Below, piece after piece: positions 25,308-51,466 of a stretch of DNA of 64,000 nucleotides. Source of the DNA: Eopsaltria australis (Eukaryota; Chordata; Aves; Passeriformes; Petroicidae); the NCBI GenBank assembly GCA_034509425.1, contig JAVTVJ010001154.1, positions 124,001 through 188,000 of the forward strand, written 5' to 3'. The notes beneath the pieces were generated by a model. The model saw nothing but the letters and a program-made list of their open reading frames with translations. It was not told the DNA's origin and searched no databases. Made by a program: the position numbers and the translations under genes. How positions within the stretch are numbered: the first letter of the stretch is position 1; every line of letters begins with the position of its first letter.

Positions 25308-28300
25308 CTACAATACATTTAAAGAAATGAAAGAGAGACAGTAGCAGAAAGGTGCCTTCTTGCCAGCCCGTGGCTGTCTCAAATGAGCATTTAGAAATGC
25401 TAACATGCTGGGGAAATCTGCTTTCCATCATTATGTGATTGTTAGGCATCATATTCATACAAATTGGTAGCAAACATTCAAAAACTACTATAAGAAGAAG
25501 GGAATGTCAATAAGCAATCTCTTTGTTAGCCACAGTGCCAAAATTTAAACCTTCAACATCAGCTTCTTTAAACTGCTGATGATTTCCCCTCTTTTTAGTG
25601 TTTAAGTGCTTACATTATAAGGTTAAAACCAAAGCAACTACATCATCTTGGGTACCTACAAACAGAGATGGATGGAGTGGAAGTGATGCTGTATGTGATA
25701 GTTCTTCACCAGGGGAAATACAGGTTGGATATTAGGAAAAAAAAGTTTTTTATGGAAAGAGTGGTAAAATACTGGAACTGCCTGCCCAGGGAGGTGTGGA
25801 GTCACCATCCCTGGATGTGTTTATAAAAAGATTGGATGTGGCACTCGGTGTCATGGTTTAGTGGAGGTGTTGGGGCATAGGCTGGACTTGATGATCTTGA
25901 AGGTCTCTTCCAACCCAGTGACTGATTCTGTGATCTTCTTTAGTAATTACATATGACAACAAACCCGAAGTCCTCAAGTATATCTTATCAAGGTGTGCAG
26001 AGCTGAGAACTAGCCTGGGGTCCTGAGTGTGCACACACACGCAAAACTGAACTGCACCCCGAGAGAGGCTCAAAGCCCCTCCTGGCAGGCCCAGGCCCAG
26101 TGCTGTGTCAGTACCTCCATGGGGTTGACGGTGATGGTGAGGGCAGAGTCGTCCCAGTCCATGTCGCTGTCCTTGGCGGGGCCGTGGCCAGCGGGGCTGA
26201 GCTGCTGCGCCGAGCGGAGCCGGAGCACGCCCAGCGTCACCACCAGCACCAGGATGCTCACACAGGTGAGGATAACGAGCGTGGCCACGCTGGGGACAAC
26301 TGGGACACGGGGGCAAAGGGAGTGCAGTTACACTTGTGCTACAAACCCCTGAGCCGCACTGAGTACCTTGCTAGTTTTGAACCCGCAGCACCCCCTGCTC
26401 TGGACTGAGAGTCAGGACAGACACCTGCCACGTGCCTGGGACCACAGAAAGTGCCCACCCACTCAGGTGGAGCACACACAAATGGTGCTCACAGATATCT
26501 TATCCTGAGTATGCTCAATCCTAACTAAGAAGTGAGCATACCCACCTTTGCTCTTTGAGCCACTGAACTACAGAAGATAAGTAGCTAATAAGTGCAGAAT
26601 CAATCAGTTTAGAACAAGTGCTTTTGCAGTAAATTCTGTTATCTCACCTGCATGTTGACCCCTTCTGATCACAGCTGAGACCTCAACCTTACTTGAGACA
26701 AAAGCTTATATTTTCAAAGGTTTCAAACGCTTGTGATTTGAATCTCAAGCTCCCAGATATAAAATAAAGCATTGCCACCCTGTTTTCCTGTGTTACAACC
26801 TTCCTGGGAGACTTTAGAGGACTCAAGACAGTTTTCCTCACTGTCTGGTTGCACACCTGTCTCCACCTAGTCACAGGTAGAAATCTCTCTGAACTACTCC
26901 ATGTAATCAGCTCCATGCTTAGGTTAGTGGGGAAATGCTGCCACTTTCTATGTACCTTGAGGTACTGCAGCTCCAGGAGCTATAGTATAACCCAGTCCAT
27001 AACCCATTTTATTGCCTTGCCCTCCCGTAAGAAAGCAACTCTGAAATCAAAACAATATTTAGGAACAAAAAAACCTAGTTTGCAATAGTTTATCCATTAA
27101 ACATTCAGTTTCATTTTAGTGAACTGTCTGTTCAATGTAAAAAACAAAATACAGTAATTTTCTAAGCATACCTGTATATAGCTACGTATAACTGCCTACA
27201 CTTTACATCAGCTTTACTTCTTTACATATGTGTCATTCAGCTAAAAGGATTTCAGGATCCAACATTTAAACAGGTATCTTTGCCCTGGATTTAACTTCAC
27301 TGAAAAGGTTTCAGATTTGGGTATATAATTTTAACTCATATAGCCTAAAAATTAAATTAAAATATATCCTATTGTATTATCTCCACAGAACCCAGACTGA
27401 GGCCTTGACAGCAGCTAACAGAGGCACTGCAGCAATTATAAATTTTAAAAATAATACAATTTCTTCCTTTTGTTTAGAAAGGAGTGGGTAGAAATTAATA
27501 TGCTACAGAACTACAAATGCATAAGGACAATACGAGCGTAAGTATTACTCTTTGTACCATGCAATACAAGAAACAAGACCGTGGGTGGTCAGAGTGCAAA
27601 ACCATAATGAAGACTTTAAGAAAAGGATATCAGGTTTTAATTACAAAGTACATTCTGAGACAGAACAGAATTCAATGTTACCTTGTATCACACCTGTGCA
27701 ATGATCTCTGAGAGGTTTTAGAGGCTGAAAGAATGGATCTCAGGGCTTTAGTCTATGGAGCAGGCCCCCAAGGGAAACACTGACACACCAGAGTAATTGA
27801 GAGCAGTCTCAGTGAAGGGGTCACATACCTGAGCTGGGAACTGCACTTACACTCCCCTCAGGCTGCTGAACAGACTGGAGAAACTGGGGCTGGGCTATCA
27901 TGTGATTTACATGGTCCATGAAGTTGGAGTTGGAACTGTGTAGAATATTAACCTGGGAGAAGAGGAAAATAAGAGACCAGATACTAAAAAGCATTTTATA
28001 CTTCAAGCCTGCTGGTTCCATATATTCCACTGGACTATGAAGTTCATCAGCAGACAGGAACACTACTACATAGATCCTAAAGGCCAAATTAACTCCTTTT
28101 TTAATGCCAGTGGAAAATGCACAGCTTAATAAATTTCTAGCATGAAAAATGCATTCTAACCTTTCTGGCTGTTGACTCTGAAGTGGCACAGACCAGGACT
28201 CTGGATTTACCTGTTTGGATAAGTAGCGACTTTTTCTTCTCTCTGTATTAATCAGCTTTTAGGTGTTATCTAAACACTGTGAAGCAACTTAATTTTATTA

Positions 28301-31300
28301 ACCATTATTATGCTGTTAATTGTTTTTTATAAACAATTATTAATTTTGACCATATTGCTAAGTAGGTCCTGCAGTTTCCTGGAGCTGATACCAGGGCTCT
28401 AGGCCTCGGTCAGAAAACACAGCTCAGTGATTGCTCACCTCCAGGCTGAATTCACTGCTCACCTCCAGGCTGAATTCACTGCCCACCTCCAAGCTGAACT
28501 CATTGCTCACCTCCAGGCTGAATTCACTGCTTATCTCCAGACTGAAGTCATTGCTCACCTCCAGGTTGAACTCATTGCTGGTGTAGCGCCCGTTGAGCTC
28601 GGAGCACTTGACCCTGAATTTCCTGTCTGAGGTGGCCGCCGTGCCCCAGTTGCGGTAGCGGAGCTGCCGCAGCACCTGCTCGTAGCTGAACATGCTGTCC
28701 ACGCCTGTGGGGTGGGAGGGCAGGGACAGCTCAGGGACAGCCAAGGGGACACTGCTCTGGCAACACAGAACAAACCAACTGCTCACAGAAAGCATGGAAC
28801 TCGGCAGAATGGTCTGGAAAAGACAGGGTGTCAACTATTCCCTGATACTCGGTTATGTTGGGAATAGTTTTTGGAATTAAATGTGGAATTAAATTCTCCC
28901 TCATGGAGAGGGAGAATTACAACAACAAAGGTACAGAATAAACTACTTAGTGATCAGAAAAAGATGGCCAACGCACCAGCATTGTACAGGAATGCTGAGG
29001 AATCCCCTCACTCCCCCTGTGATGGTCCACAAGAACCCCACATTGAAGGAAAGCAGGGATGCCATTTTCTGTACTTGGGGAGTAGCAGGAAGGATGCTGA
29101 GAACCCAAAGGGCAAATACAGCACATCCAGAGATCAAGAAGCAACTGTGTTTTTTAAGATACAGTCATTCCTGGGATATTTTCATGGCTAGAAAATCACA
29201 CATTTCTGTCCGATTTCTTACACATTAGTGCTTTCATTTCAATATAGAACTGATGGGACAAAATAAGGGAAAACAAATTTCATGAACTCACCATAGATTG
29301 AATATCCTGCAGTGGAATTGGTGGCATCTAGATGTTTTCCTTGAAGCTCCCCATGATCTAGTTCTAAACACTCTTGTTCAGGGTCTAGTTCTGCACCAAT
29401 GACCAAAACATCACAGAAATCCAAGTTGTGGAGCATTTCCTCAACTACCACTTGCTTATTGACTGTGAACCCATGGCATAGACCATGAAAAAAAAGAAGG
29501 AAATGAAGATAAACGATCACAGAACAGCTCAGTCATTTTATGTGCTTTGCATCAGGGCTTTCAATTTTTGCCAAGATGGCTGAACTGTTTTTGCTGATAT
29601 TAAATCTGGCACACTTGAAACAAATCAAGAGAAGTGTCCTGTCTGTTCAGGTGCCGTGATGATGAAGGCCTACAAACACCCAGTGAGATAGAAAATATAT
29701 TGCTCTGTAATAAATGATATTCAAGAACATTACTGGAAGCAGAAAACTGAAATTTGATCTTGGAAATAAATTAATGTAAAAAATCCCAGGTTTCAATGCT
29801 GTATTGATACCAGCTTTCTCAAGGAAAACCAAGCCGGAAAAATCCACATCCAACATATTTATGCTTGGATGATTCTCTCAGTTACTCTGTGCCCCATAAA
29901 CAATTTGCATTACAAAGACCTGGCCATCTATCCAAGAGCAGAGCATTATCATAAATAGCAAGACCCTGTGCTGTGTGACTTAAAAAAAATAAGTTAAAAA
30001 CTGACTATTGTTCAATATGTACAAGTAAAAAAAATAATTCTGTCACTGGAAAAAGAGTAGCATATGAAATTAATATTTAAATTCTCTGATCACCTTAGCT
30101 CAGAGTGTACGGCAAAACTACTTAAGCAGCTCCCTGAGGGCACAGAAACTGCAGGCCTGGAGCTTCCTGCCTATTTTGTGAATTTTATGTCAGAGAGTGT
30201 ATTGGAAGGAAGGCAGAGCCAGGAAAGCTTCATGCCCAGATTCCCAACTCCTAGTGCAGTGAATTTGGGTACCTAAGCTCTAGGCGTAGCTGTAACATAA
30301 CCAAAAATGTAGACCAAGTCAAATTTGGAGGCTTCAAGGAATCCACGCCCCTAAACTTGCATATCATTACCCATTTTTCTTTTCTCCAGAGACATATATC
30401 TAGTTGCTGCTTATTCTAGTCCAACAAACAGTGTTTAGAATGATTCCTCAAATTACCAGACATTTCATCTGCCTTGCATTCAAACATCCAAAAGGAAGAT
30501 TTCTTTATAGACAACGATTTTAAATTTGATTTATACCTTTGAACATTCACCCAGTGTTGAATAATAATACTCACATTGTTCAGCATTAGAATAAACTGTC
30601 ATCACTGAAAATAAGTATTTTAAAATGATTATATAAACATTTTATAGGTGGGAAATTAAGGCATGAGATTACTTTCTCAAGTATCACTCACAAGCTGGTA
30701 GCAGAGCTGGAAACATGAGCAGACTTCAACTTTTGTTCCATTACTGCTTTTCACTTTATCAGCACAATTAACAAAACTCAGTTACAAGTAGAGACATTCT
30801 AATGAAAACACCCTATGTAACAGAATATGAAAGGAAGAGTAGAAAGGAATTATTCTGAAGTATACTAAATGGACACTACATGGAAAATCTGCTTTTTTAG
30901 GAGCACCTTCTGATCTGCCACCATTTAACACATTTTTCAATGTGTTGAATTTCTTCAGTACAGCATTACTGTGGTCTAATTAATCTGGGTGAAGTGACTT
31001 CCTTTGCATTACTTGTTTGCACCATCCTTTAAAAATATGAGGAGACAATACAAAATATTCAAAAGAAAGACACAAACCTCTGTCAGATTCTCTTAAGTCC
31101 ACTGGATGCTCCATTTTAGTGACTGTGCTGACAATCCTGATGTCAGGTAACAAAATAACGCCTCTTTCACTTTCAAACTGTGCAGCTGGTCTAGCAAAGT
31201 GGTCCATCCCAGTTATTGTAATCTTGGGCTCATTGGCCTGGAGCACCATTACATAGGCATCTATGTCTGGGATACTAATGCAGACATCTTCACCAAAACA

Positions 31301-46300: not shown

Positions 46301-48982
46301 TATCAGAATCTTTAGCACACTGTCTTACTAAATCTTAGCATTTTCATGAGGTGGAAAATTTGTTTCTACTTTTGAGCAGCTCCAATTCTTTCTCTAATAA
46401 AAGAACAATAACATAATATTGCAGTAAATATTAATGGCAGTTACAGGTACGATTTCAGTAGTTTAAATCAGCTTCACCTAAAAGGAAGAAGAATCTCATT
46501 CTGAATGGTTATTAATTAAGCCATCAAATTATCCCAGGCAAAATTAAAAATGTTTGAAAACAATTTCAACTTTTTATTTGTTTAACAGCTAAAATATGAA
46601 ATATAGCCTGTGATCTGAATGTATTGTGAGCCTATGTGAGCAGTTTTGCCTTAATTCCTTCTCTTCCCAGTTTGAGAAAAGGAGCCAGAGGTGCAAAGGG
46701 AACCAGATTATGGCTGTTGTTCTCAGCTGCCCTGGGAGCAGATGAACCCCACGGGTGCAGGGTGTGGCAAAGCTGGCACAGCTCCTGCTTAGGCAGGGCT
46801 TGTTCCACAGACACCAGAACTGCTCCACAGGCCCCCAGACATGGCACCTGCAGCACCATTAACAAGAGGTCCAGGTGAATACCCAGCAATACTGAGACTT
46901 TTAGGAAAAAAATCCCCAAAACACTAAAGACTGCTTTTAGAGAGTAACAAAAACACTGAGTGTGAATGAAAGAAGGTAAGGGGCAGAAGCAGTACAAATA
47001 ATGCACAAAAACATTTATGTTGACCTATGCAGAAGAACCTCATATAAATATGAAATAAGGGATTAAATTTTCTTTTTTTTTAACACAGCTACTGAGAAAT
47101 GCTGATTTTTCAGAAGGCAGTACTCCATGATTATTTACAGCCTCTATGGCATTTACTCATGTCTGGAAAGAACTAAATTTACAAATGACATTTGCATTTG
47201 ATAACTCTGGAACTCTGATCTAAAAGTACTGCACCAATACTACACAGCAAAAAAAATCAACCCATGCAAACACCAGCTAGAGAAGAAACAGTCTGTACTT
47301 TTCCAAATATATGGGATTAGTGCAATGCCAGCTTATCACACCTCCCTCAGAGATCAATATTGTAAACTTACCACATCTTATTTTAGGATTAGTGTGGCTT
47401 CATTCTGCATGTTGTCATCAAAGTAAAGATTGCATCTTCACCCCACTCATAATCTAACAGCTGGATTTGCTTCAAGTACTATTTACACTGAATAGCTCTG
47501 CCAAGCATAAAATGTCCAAATTTTGCAAATAAGCAAAGATCAAATTGGCAAACAAGGTGATAATGGAGAAAGTGAGAGCACATGAAAGAGTGGGGAAGAA
47601 ACACAAGCTATGTTAAAGCATTTTTTCCTCATTATAGTTTCCTTCACTTCATACTTTAAGTGGAAAAAGACAGTTAAAATAGAAAATCAATGTGGAGGGG
47701 TAGTGGAGACACCTTTACGAAAACAGACGAGCAGAGAAAGAGGAGCACTTCAGGTGTAAGGCAGAGAAAAGAGAAAGAAAGTGGTGTAAGGACCAGGTAA
47801 AAAGAATGAGAAGAATGGGATTCTCAGGAAAAGGTAATATTTAAGCAAAGGCCCATGCAGGTATGGCTCAGGAGTTTGGACTTTTGGATTTATTTTACTC
47901 TCTCTTTTACCTCTGGTGTGTAACAGGGTGAATCAAGTAAATTACTGGAATTGCTGGTGAGATACATCCAATGTGAAGAGCACAGGACTGGGCCATGAGT
48001 TGTAAAAGAAATCTGAGGCAGGGACTGAAAAGAAATAGCTGTATTTCTTTAATAGCTAGATAGTTTTCTTAAGGCTGGAGAACAAGGGAAACAAATAAAA
48101 GTGAAGACAAAAGATAAAGAAGGCAATCTTTCACACTGAATAGACAAACTGTATCCAATACTTCCTCAGGTCATGAGAATGCAAAGCCTGTTAATGTCCT
48201 GCCCATTTTATCCTTGGACTTGATTCATCAACTGCTCTGGATTTACATCTGATTTTACACCATCAATCTTTTAGCAGGTTATTTCCTGTGCAATCAGCGA
48301 CACAAGTAAGATTCCTTTTTGGCCTGAACCCTGGTTCTGTTGTCTGTTTGATTCCATGATGATTTTTTGCCTTTTCTTTTACATACCTTTTATATACCTT
48401 TTATGTATCCTCAGTGCTCTTAGTATGCATATTTGTAATTCCTTAAAACTGATAACTTAGCATTGTCCTGGTATTCTGTTGAGCCAGGAGACCAAACACC
48501 CCAAGGCCCTCTCAGAAACACATCCTGTAAACCAAGATTAGGCCCATCCAGGGGGAATTCCTTGGGATGGGGGGATACCACACTATTCATTCAAGCCTCT
48601 CATTGGGAATCTTTGTTAGAGATGCTAATTTGCAAGGTCTATAAATTGTATACACGATCTATAGCAAGCGTGCATTTTGGTGCATCCACCTTGGTGAGGT
48701 GGTGCACCAGGAGGATCCTTAATAAACACTGGGGTAAAAAACCTTTATCCCTTAACTATGTCGAGCTCTCAATTTTTAGGACCCAGGGAAAGGCACCATG
48801 TCAACTGCAGGGGTTTTACCTTGCCAGCAGGCCCCCACGGTGAGCTGCATGGCGATGTGGGAGGGGTGGATGGGCCAGTCGTTGGTCACCAGGTAGGGCT
48901 CGTACGTGGTCCCGTCCATGTACAGCGTCACCACGGGGAACTCCACATTCACCACGTAGTAGTGCCACTCCTTGTCACAGAT
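25098..48982 (-). CDS. CLSTN2: Calsyntenin-2, 3' half (nine joined exons)
   Basis: The nine exons join as complement(25098..25307, 26115..26299, 27829..27952, 28559..28704, 29292..29462, 31078..31301, 32284..32432, 35685..35851, 48820..48982). They give 512 codons plus TAA with every phase compatible and GT/AG at every junction. Human CLSTN2 is about 955 aa, so this is the C-terminal half; the start lies outside the window. The order is: end of the LNS (laminin-G-like) domain, calsyntenin ectodomain, transmembrane helix, and a tail with MDWDDSAL and LEWDDSTLPY (kinesin-light-chain-binding WDD motifs). I chose CLSTN2 over CLSTN1/3 because the run from WHYYV through NDWPIHPSHIAMQ to GACWQ matches my memory of CLSTN2. 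The family is type I neuronal membrane proteins of synapses and kinesin-1 vesicles. Known from the family: shedding and release of the tail. Inferred: the same here. Confidence 0.93.
25706..25936 (+). mobile_element. CR1 LINE 3' end
   Basis: Motifs: TACAGGTTGGATATTAGGAA, GTCACCATCCCTGGATGTGT, CTTGATGATCTTGAAGGTCT, and TTCCAACCCAGTGACTGATT with a terminal CTGTGAT. It sits antisense in the intron before the last CLSTN2 coding exon. Confidence 0.9.
26115..26299 (-). CDS. CLSTN2: CLSTN2 exon: transmembrane helix and first WDD motif
   Basis: This 185-nt exon enters in phase 1 after gtcccag and ends in phase 0 at ATGGAG|gtactg. The hydrophobic helix VATLVILTCVSILVLVVTLG is followed by the stop-transfer residues RLRSAQQ, then a short Gly/Pro-rich linker (SPAGHGPAKDSD) and MDWDDSALTITVNPME. 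MDWDDSAL is the first kinesin-light-chain-binding motif, and NPME plus the next exon's KY gives a Mint/X11-type NPMEKY. The linker is GC-rich and CpG-rich, and differs from the mammalian IAHQHF...EAAKESE linker. Confidence 0.94.
27829..27952 (-). CDS. CLSTN2: CLSTN2 exon: juxtamembrane ectodomain (VNILHSSNS...)
   Basis: This 124-nt exon enters in phase 0 after a pyrimidine tract and tcccag, and ends in phase 1 at CTCAG|gtatgt. It encodes 41 full codons: VNILHSSNSNFMDHVNHMIA, then QPQFLQSVQQPEG and SVSAVPSS. It forms the stalk just outside the membrane, where family members are shed by metalloproteases. DHVNHMIAQPQFLQSV aligns with human EHVNHLIVQPPFLQSV. The HSSNSNF portion differs from the mammalian charged stretch. 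Confidence 0.92.
28433..28576 (-). repeat. Six 24-bp tandem copies of an exon end plus its 5' splice site
   Basis: There are six contiguous units with minus-strand consensus ARTGARTTCAGCCTGGAG followed by GTGAGC. First intron bases of the six donors are 28558, 28534, 28510, 28486, 28462 and 28438. The first is the canonical donor. The second is disabled (ATAAGC), the fourth is GTGGGC, and the third, fifth and sixth keep GTGAGC. Unit length is divisible by three, so the frame stays open across the array (repeating [V/I][S/G][N/S][E/D]FSLE) until TGA at 28424-28426. Confidence 0.95.
28559..28704 (-). CDS. CLSTN2: CLSTN2 exon: ectodomain ending NEFNLE; donor is amplified
   Basis: This 146-nt exon enters in phase 1 after ccccacag and ends in phase 0 at CTGGAG|gtgagc. 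It encodes 48 full codons from VDSMFSYEQVLRQLRYRNWG to CSELNGRYTSNEFNLE. The boundary was set by continuity with the next exon (VNILH) and by the known NLEVSILH order in mammalian CLSTN2. Its last 18 nt plus the first 6 intron nt are the first of six tandem 24-bp copies, so several in-frame downstream donors compete (28510, 28486, 28462, 28438). If any is used, the exon is longer than given here. Confidence 0.9.
29292..29462 (-). CDS. CLSTN2: CLSTN2 exon: ectodomain (EEMLHNLDFCDVLVIG...)
   Basis: This 171-nt exon enters in phase 1 after gttcacag and ends in phase 1 at TATG|gtgagt. It encodes 56 full codons, including EEMLHNLDFCDVLVIGAELD, then ECLELDHGELQ and DATNSTAGYSIY. NST is an N-glycosylation sequon and is also present in the mammalian protein. 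It is the only internal exon of the nine whose length is a multiple of three with equal phases, so it could be skipped without a frameshift; nothing here shows that it is. Confidence 0.93.
29463..31077 (-). other. CLSTN2: CLSTN2 intron with an ancient MIR-like fragment
   Basis: This is a 1615-bp intron. Apart from the MIR-like piece at about 30640-30725 it is unremarkable. Neighbouring introns at 31302-32283 (982 bp), 28705-29291 (587 bp) and 27953-28558 (606 bp, beginning with the amplified donor array) hold nothing else recognised. Confidence 0.8.
30640..30725 (-). mobile_element. MIR-like (CORE-SINE) fragment
   Basis: TTATAGGTGGGAAATTAAGG, CATGAGATTACTTTCTCAAG, and CAAGCTGGTAGCAGAGCTGG follow the order of the MIR core in reverse complement (TGAGGAAACTGAGGCA, AAGTAACTTGCCCAAG, CACAGCTAGTAAGTGGCAGA). 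Ancient and diverged. Confidence 0.6.
31078..31301 (-). CDS. CLSTN2: CLSTN2 exon: ectodomain (CFGEDVCISIPDIDAYV...)
   Basis: This is the largest internal exon here, 224 nt. It enters in phase 2 after tttttcag and ends in phase 1 at AGAG|gtttgt, a somewhat weak donor (GTTTGT rather than GTRAGT). It encodes 74 full codons from CFGEDVCISIPDIDAYVMVL through RPAAQFESERGVILLPDI to DLRESDR. The paired cysteines in CFGEDVC are conserved in the family. The C-terminal part (VTKMEHPVDLRESDR) is the region most diverged from the mammalian sequence I remember. Confidence 0.92.
32284..32432 (-). CDS. CLSTN2: CLSTN2 exon: ectodomain (YHFNPSQSVLVMEGDD...)
   Basis: This 149-nt exon enters in phase 0 after ttctcctag and ends in phase 2 at CCA|gtaagt. 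It encodes 49 full codons starting YHFNPSQSVLVMEGDDIENI and running through a KVSYINSRQFPTAG segment to KVSSKV. The following glutamine is split across the junction (CA|A). It belongs to the calsyntenin-specific membrane-proximal ectodomain. The residues correspond to the conserved IKYHFNPSQS region of CLSTN2. Confidence 0.92.
32433..35684 (-). other. CLSTN2: CLSTN2 intron, unique sequence
   Basis: This is a 3252-bp intron. I recognised no repeat family or exon in it. Open frames here are short and lack family features. Confidence 0.85.
35685..35851 (-). CDS. CLSTN2: CLSTN2 exon: end of LNS domain (GGEVAKPRFAQYFHG...)
   Basis: This 167-nt exon enters in phase 1 after ttacag, so the split codon G|GA gives glycine, and ends in phase 0 at AAAG|gtgaga. 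It encodes 55 full codons, including GEVAKPRFAQYFHGSLASL, then a TIRPGK stretch and CLQACKEGLDI. The last beta strands of the LNS domain are followed by a cysteine-containing linker (CLQAC), which is also present in mammalian CLSTN2. It is preceded by a 13 kb intron. Confidence 0.92.
45385..45459. repeat. Cluster of direct and inverted short repeats
   Basis: AGATCTGGTAC occurs twice back-to-back (45403-45413, 45414-45424), flanked by inverse copies ACCAGATTTGGTA (45385-45397) and GTACCAGAT (45430-45438). A perfect palindrome CCTGTTAGTGCTAACAGG follows (45442-45459). Confidence 0.9.
48464..48784 (+). mobile_element. Solo LTR-like element of an avian endogenous retrovirus
   Basis: It starts TGTCCTGG and carries a TATA-like CTATAAATT (48639-48647) and a poly(A) signal AATAAA (48721-48726) near its 3' end, the order of an LTR U3-R. 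It shares blocks with the segment at 62455-62793: AGACCAAACAC, CTGTAAAC followed by a TTAG-CCCA-CCAG series, and GGATCCT. No internal retroviral genes flank it. I could not define target-site duplications, so the ends are approximate. It is antisense to CLSTN2. Confidence 0.6.
48820..48982 (-). CDS. CLSTN2: CLSTN2 exon: LNS domain (ICDKEWHYYV...GACWQ)
   Basis: This 163-nt exon enters in phase 0 after a tcccag acceptor and leaves in phase 1 at CAAG|gtaaaac. It encodes 54 residues beginning ICDKEWHYYV and ending VGACWQ. It is the core of the LNS/laminin-G-like beta sandwich between the cadherin repeats and the membrane-proximal ectodomain. The motif EFPVVTLYMDG is the typical beta-hairpin of this domain. 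The exon is more CpG- and GC-rich than the flanking introns. An LTR-like segment lies about 35 bp past the donor in antisense orientation. The preceding exon was not found in the remaining 15 kb of the window. Confidence 0.93.
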
Positions 48983-51116: not shown

Positions 51117-51466
51117 GACACGGACACAGCTCTGCCCATCCCAGGGAGCTCCAGCAGGAGCACAGCTCTGCCCATCCCAGGGAGCTCCAGCAGGAGCACA
51201 GCTCTGCCCATCCCAGGGAGCTCCAGCAGGGACACAGCTCTGCCCATCCCAGGGAGCTCCAGCAGGAGCACAGCTCTGCCCATCCCAGGGAGCTCCAGCA
51301 GGAGCACAGCTCTGCCCATCCCAGGGAGCTCCAGCAGGGACACAGCTCTGCCCATCCCAGGGAGCTCCAGCAGGACACAGCTCTGCCCATCCCAGGGAGC
51401 TCCAGCAGGGACACAGCTCTGCCCATCCCAGGGAGCTCCAGCAGGAGCACAGCTCTGCCCATCCCC
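51117..51466. repeat. 36-bp minisatellite, about 10 copies
   Basis: The unit is AGCACAGCTCTGCCCATCCC followed by AGGGAGCTCCAGCAGG. Ten starts of CAGCTCTGCCCATCCC are visible, the last unit partial. Variants are GGGACAC, GGAGCAC and GGACAC at the unit junction. One junction lacks two bases, which shifts the reading frame of the array. Open frames on both strands here are repeat artefacts. Confidence 0.95.

Follow-up and report, generated by a model that had tools for sequence, protein, structure and literature searches.

Human introns have reportedly arisen from tandem arrays, an observation credited to Zhuo et al. in 2007. Minisatellites at exon-intron boundaries create alternative splicing in human duplicated genes, with units that average 30 bp and are repeated 4 times, according to De Grassi and Ciccarelli (2009; PMC2812944). 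The array that we describe here in songbird CLSTN2 is likewise a minisatellite across an exon-intron boundary with a copy number that seems to vary between homologues, and the human transcripts keep or drop the repeat as paired CLSTN2 gene models do in three songbird species. The human genes lie in segmental duplications and acquired new introns, whereas at CLSTN2 the intron is kept and the donor alone has been multiplied, six-fold and in frame. Tandem or competing alternative 5' splice sites (A5E; Bortfeldt et al., 2008; PMC2423196) also combine one acceptor with several donors and frame-preserving extensions; the focus of that work is on overlapping donors 3-6 nt apart, while CLSTN2 has near-identical donors in 24-nt steps that derive from repeat expansion. 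Intron gain by duplication, as described for potato RdRp (PMC4974935), is similar in that duplication of a splice boundary copies splicing signals, but it gave a new intron there, and no new intron or acceptor was found at the CLSTN2 array. Stalk splicing that governs shedding of CADM1 (PMC5385562) is comparable in that a short alternative insert is placed close to the membrane in a shed adhesion protein; in CADM1 this is an alternative exon with a measured effect, whereas the alternative donor of CLSTN2 is known from sequence and gene models. The generation of alternative 5' splice sites from a boundary minisatellite is thus an already known kind of event, and the songbird locus is a case with the donor itself multiplied. 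Searches of the open-access literature by title and start of abstract, including CLSTN2 with songbird and calsyntenin-2 with zebra finch, gave no report of the array among the matches listed. CLSTN2 is located in a hapFLK region of blackcaps (PMC7173969) and shows a methylation change in house sparrows (PMC9702581); the passages concerned do not bear on the array.

The reading that we prefer, with a probability of roughly 0.75, is a largely tolerated minisatellite that arose from the duplicated end of a CLSTN2 exon together with its donor and that gives in-frame alternative 5' splice sites. The founding event would have been the duplication, in an early songbird ancestor, probably of Passerida, of a 24-bp segment comprising the final 18-21 nt of the exon and the 5' splice site, and the array may then have grown, shrunk and been partly homogenised as a minisatellite. 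Since the intact copies are full in-frame donors, the exon can end either at the canonical donor or at one farther along the array; the spliceosome, facing several equal donors, would sometimes pick a later one, and the linker would become longer in steps of eight residues. As the linker that would receive the extra residues is predicted to be disordered, their effect is probably small and they are probably tolerated. Use of the downstream donors is indicated by gene models of other songbirds and is presumed for the species studied here.

The window (the whole stretch of DNA that was analysed, 64,000 nucleotides from Eopsaltria australis) contains the array within a gene that, by homology, is CLSTN2, since residues 435-950 of zebra finch CLSTN2 map onto nine minus-strand stretches from 49000 to 25104. 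The gene had been so named in the preliminary description. The mapped residues include the CLSTN_C part (Pfam, zebra finch protein), the membrane helix and the acidic tail, and the cadherin exons are outside the window. Besides the exons listed in Table 1, further CLSTN2 exons are found at 48982, 32432 and 29462. The frame is open through all array units and the alternative ends keep the reading frame. Because the VNILH acceptor at 27952 is in phase 0, live downstream donors would add 16, 24, 32 or 40 residues, as had been calculated earlier. Residues private to the window amount to 8 of the 512 compared with 34 other proteins. The transmembrane exon looks GC-rich and diverged (RLRSAQQLSPAGHGPAKDSDMDW).

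Table 1. Positions of the CLSTN2 exons, repeat units, splice donors and neighbouring features in the window.
Feature	Positions	Strand	Remarks
CLSTN2 exon ending ...TSNEFNLE	28559..28704	-	canonical exon end 28559; zebra finch match
24-bp minisatellite, 6.2 copies	28432..28579	-	spans CLSTN2 exon end (21 nt) and first 127 nt of intron; TRF
Donor 0 (canonical), GTGAGC	28553..28558	-	U1 duplex -9.7 kcal/mol
Unit U1, SNDFSLEI	28532..28555	-	most diverged, 5-6/24 differences from other units
Donor 1, destroyed, ATAAGC	28529..28534	-	GT lost; U1 duplex -2.9 kcal/mol
Unit U2, SSEFSLEV	28508..28531	-	identical to U5
Donor 2, GTGAGC	28505..28510	-	would add 16 residues; U1 duplex -9.7 kcal/mol
Unit U3, SNEFSLEV	28484..28507	-	nearest to exon copy
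Donor 3, GTGGGC	28481..28486	-	differs at +4, slightly weaker; would add 24 residues; U1 duplex -8.9 kcal/mol
Unit U4, GSEFSLEV	28460..28483	-	unit comparison
Donor 4, GTGAGC	28457..28462	-	would add 32 residues; U1 duplex -9.7 kcal/mol
Unit U5, SSEFSLEV	28436..28459	-	identical to U2
Donor 5, GTGAGC	28433..28438	-	would add 40 residues; U1 duplex -9.7 kcal/mol
In-frame TGA on read-through	28424..28426	-	after GTG AGC AAT CAC (VSNH); four codons past last donor; before membrane exon
Intron stretch just past array	28326..28409	-	matches read-through tail of Agelaius models
Next CLSTN2 exon, VNILHSSNSNFMDHVNHMIAQPQFLQ...	27829..27952	-	acceptor CCCAG; opens with VNILH, phase 0; holds presumed shedding site NH/MI by homology
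Transmembrane exon	26115..26299	-	zebra finch match; helix in AlphaFold model of zebra finch protein

TRF called the array with a period of 24 (85% matches, score 212) and also in a 72-bp register (score 244), and a second repeat search gave units spaced 24 start to start, in agreement with TRF. The 18-base probe TTCAGCCTGGAGGTGAGC, with up to 3 mismatches, had 6 matches in the 64-kb window, all inside the array; shuffled controls gave a mean of 0.02 matches, and 0 of 100 shuffles reached 6. The six 24-bp units reported earlier at the CLSTN2 exon end were recovered in both ways, although the upper end of the array, 28579, is slightly past the limits first quoted. The exonic repeat copy matches over 21 nt (28579-28559), and a unit boundary of 18 + 6 is therefore one of several choices: the repeat unit can be read as the final 18 exonic nucleotides followed by the 6-nt donor, or in any other register. 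The identity of U2 and U5, the closeness of U3 to the exon copy, the divergence of U1 and the higher TRF score of the 72-bp register suggest a past duplication of a three-unit block. Among the intronic units, 3 changes are synonymous (4.3 sites) and 6 are nonsynonymous (19.7 sites), too few for a firm word on selection. RNA folding of 28400-28620 (MFE -73, z -0.13) gave no more structure than in shuffles. No Rfam family reached its gathering score in the window, and the exon-boundary sequence had 0 matches in viral contigs.

The donor sequences and positions of the preliminary description (four GTGAGC, one GTGGGC and one ATAAGC) were all found as listed there. The donors at 28558, 28510, 28462 and 28438 are identical from -3 to +6 (GAG/GTGAGC). 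Donor strength was expressed as the RNA duplex energy with the U1 5' end; on this scale the other seven CLSTN2 donors in the window range from -5.6 to -9.6 kcal/mol, i.e., the four of the array are as strong or stronger. Scored with a donor table, the four identical donors rank first among the 44 GT sites from the exon start to the acceptor. The weakest CLSTN2 donors in the window by the same table are at 31077 (+1; GAG/GTTTGT, 4.6) and 26114 (+1; GAG/GTACTG, 3.0), and the remaining six score 7.0 to 10.7.

Birds were compared at the protein level, using 251 different homologous proteins from three protein searches that gave the best 120 of 165, the best 120 of 462 and the best 120 of 406 matches, with 90% clusters represented by one member. 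The junction pattern matched 165 of the 251 proteins, to which our counts refer; the 86 off-pattern and uncounted ones include the five read-through models, a few birds, and many fish and CLSTN1 rows in which other residues stand at this place. Inserts of 1-6 octapeptides were present exactly at the junction in 11 of the 165 proteins, all from songbirds (eight genera; lengths of 1, 2, 3 or 6 octapeptides), and 154 were without an insert, which in a gene model does not show absence of the array. The inserts measure 8 residues in Hirundo, Agelaius, Ammospiza, Acridotheres and Haemorhous (three records), 16 in Turdus, 24 in Taeniopygia (two records) and 48 in Lamprotornis. The Ammospiza insert ends in WK rather than LE, with an unusual donor context. 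In three species (zebra finch, house finch and common myna), five pairs of models differ by the insert block alone (Taeniopygia 974/950 and 962/938, Haemorhous 920/912 and 877/869, Acridotheres 957/949 residues), and the canonical donor is still used in these models. Alternative ends in NCBI models are usually backed by transcripts; such models may also be partly predictions, and reads can be placed wrongly in repeats. The earlier proposal that downstream donors get used agrees with these models, which suggest that the array donors are sometimes chosen in songbirds and give a slightly longer protein. No insert was found among the corvid models (4 Cyanocitta isoforms, 5 Aphelocoma isoforms and one partial Aphelocoma model), nor in the Hirundo rustica NCBI isoforms P0164, P0171 and P0174; another Hirundo record, P0009, has one.

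One unit of the zebra finch array starts with M, which means that ATG replaces GTG, the same kind of dead donor as in the window, and the long zebra finch model continues past that unit. The dead copies are in different places in the two species, as drift would give. It is conceivable that the array is plain intron and that splicing here uses the donor at 28558 alone, a situation that the large majority of models without insert would fit and that exon definition may favour by selecting the first 5' splice site. This we consider unlikely: the four identical donors pair equally with U1, and models of eight genera have the insert, three of the species offering model pairs that differ in nothing else.

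Five models continue into the array, or all the way through it, and then stop without a membrane helix (Anomalospiza X6, Zonotrichia X2, Agelaius phoeniceus X5, and A. tricolor X5 and X6; records P0020, P0021, P0122, P0123, and P0124), and they would yield a soluble calsyntenin-2 ectodomain. The array might accordingly mark, in the main, transcripts that keep the start of the intron and end at or soon after the nearby stop, with a product devoid of the membrane anchor; the TGA past the last donor of the window (Table 1) would provide for this. Incompletely spliced RNA can give such models, however, and the full-length model pairs need true alternative donors, which makes this explanation rather improbable. 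In Anomalospiza imberbis X6 (P0020), L follows the canonical NLE, which would mean that there is no GT at the canonical donor, whereas X1-X4 (P0152, P0153, P0154 and P0156) end at that very site. The conflict could reflect heterozygosity, model error or a different exon.

The position of the insert was studied on the zebra finch protein. Pfam CLSTN_C covers the form without insert in a single stretch and, once the 24-residue insert is present, is interrupted at profile position 246. An AlphaFold model of moderate quality (P0128; 52-row alignment, mean pLDDT 67.6, pTM 0.51) has the last ectodomain strand at 777-782, the insert at 781-804, pLDDT below 50 for 786-848 and a helix at 850-881. The predicted strand ends two residues into the insert and pLDDT falls below 50 from 786, which places the insert where the predicted disordered stalk of calsyntenin-2 begins, in line with the stalk location originally proposed. 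A PDB query with a 52-residue fragment gave no match at E values up to 1. For human CLSTN2 (Alcadein gamma), the p3 fragment is described as 31 residues long and ending at Thr834 (PMC3637299). Counted back on a camel protein, p3 would start at SH/LIVQ, and the bird counterpart is NH/MIAQ, 17 residues after the junction. By this homology the insert would leave with the shed ectodomain; being on the ectodomain side of the presumed cleavage site, it would alter the linker above the cut and leave the cleavage site itself as it is.

The octapeptides themselves were compared in 27 units (5 from the window and 22 from eleven model entries), and positions 2, 5 and 7 are constant in 26 of them. The exon copy reads FNLE; S stands in place of N in 23 of the 27 inserted units, with S-x-E formed there in 21, and the 40-residue insert possible in the window would contain 8 S-x-E motifs when those at positions 2-4 are counted. 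S-x-E is the consensus of the secretory-pathway kinase Fam20C, and the insert could therefore act as a phosphorylated spacer. Carried further, songbirds might possess a length ladder in which donor choice and inherited copy number set the number of acidic octapeptides between the calsyntenin-2 ectodomain and the sheddase site, the phosphorylated spacer tuning shedding in neurons, an idea that we regard as highly doubtful. Stated more generally, donor choice or inherited copy number would tune the shedding or the reach of calsyntenin-2, by analogy with the 33-bp exon of CADM1, for which a precedent is given in PMC5385562. The location at the start of the predicted stalk, shortly before the presumed cleavage site, and the constant unit positions are compatible with such a switch. 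Array length and models vary among related species, however, the similarity of the units may be homogenisation, and the insert is away from the cut site; a functional role of this sort appears quite improbable to us.

Copy number, and with it array length, seems to vary from one songbird species to another. There are 5 intronic units in the window and at least 6 in the Lamprotornis model, and the read-through models have at least 3 in Agelaius and at least 1 in Zonotrichia; outside the window these counts are what the protein models show, with lower bounds from the read-through models. The tail of the Agelaius read-through models matches the intron of the window beyond the array (77% of 30 and 85% of 27 aligned residues, with PGNCRTYLAIWSKLI identical). 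This match is in another frame than the array, which calls for an indel in between, and both arrays are at the same place. The arrays of the window and Agelaius probably represent one locus. An independent origin of the array in each species is not favoured, because the window and Agelaius, the genus compared, share the intron past the array. A faulty assembly of the array, or faulty annotation as the source of the inserts elsewhere, is barely credible: tandem repeats are error-prone and the window comes from a single assembly, but the octapeptide recurs at the same junction in records of eight genera and Agelaius shares the intron beyond it.

We infer that the array probably originated near the base of Passerida. 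A midpoint-rooted tree of the window and 55 passerine proteins (chosen from 234) grouped the window with songbirds outside Passerida and with suboscines, in a set of 13 rows (99/96). A residue comparison with 16 Passerida, 11 other oscines and 7 outgroups, chosen and assigned to groups by hand, disagrees with the tree on the placement of the lineage: the window shares Passerida states around the membrane helix (S380, L400, L409 and G419) and has the states of other oscines elsewhere (P226, S416 and A418). From these residue states we read the lineage as being near the base of Passerida. If the tree placement is right instead, the array would be older than Passerida.

The array is of moderate interest because the gene models of songbirds point to a genuine series of splice forms, beyond a sequence curiosity. 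It offers an unusually clean natural series of near-identical 5' splice sites in 24-nt steps and in frame, the length and dead copies of which seemingly vary between species. It is a ready test of spliceosome choice among equal donors, and of minisatellites feeding new protein sequence into a conserved synaptic gene. Should donor choice be regulated, songbirds would also have a lineage-specific change in one of their neuronal adhesion proteins.

Two other minisatellites were observed in the window. A 36-bp minisatellite at 51125-51465 (9.5 copies, 96% matches in TRF) is far more uniform than the 24-bp array; it is upstream of the CLSTN2 exon at 48982, presumably in the preceding intron. A complex minisatellite at 2315-2802, with TRF periods from 13 to 129, is built around ATCCATTGGCACAATC and is located downstream of the last CLSTN2 exon.
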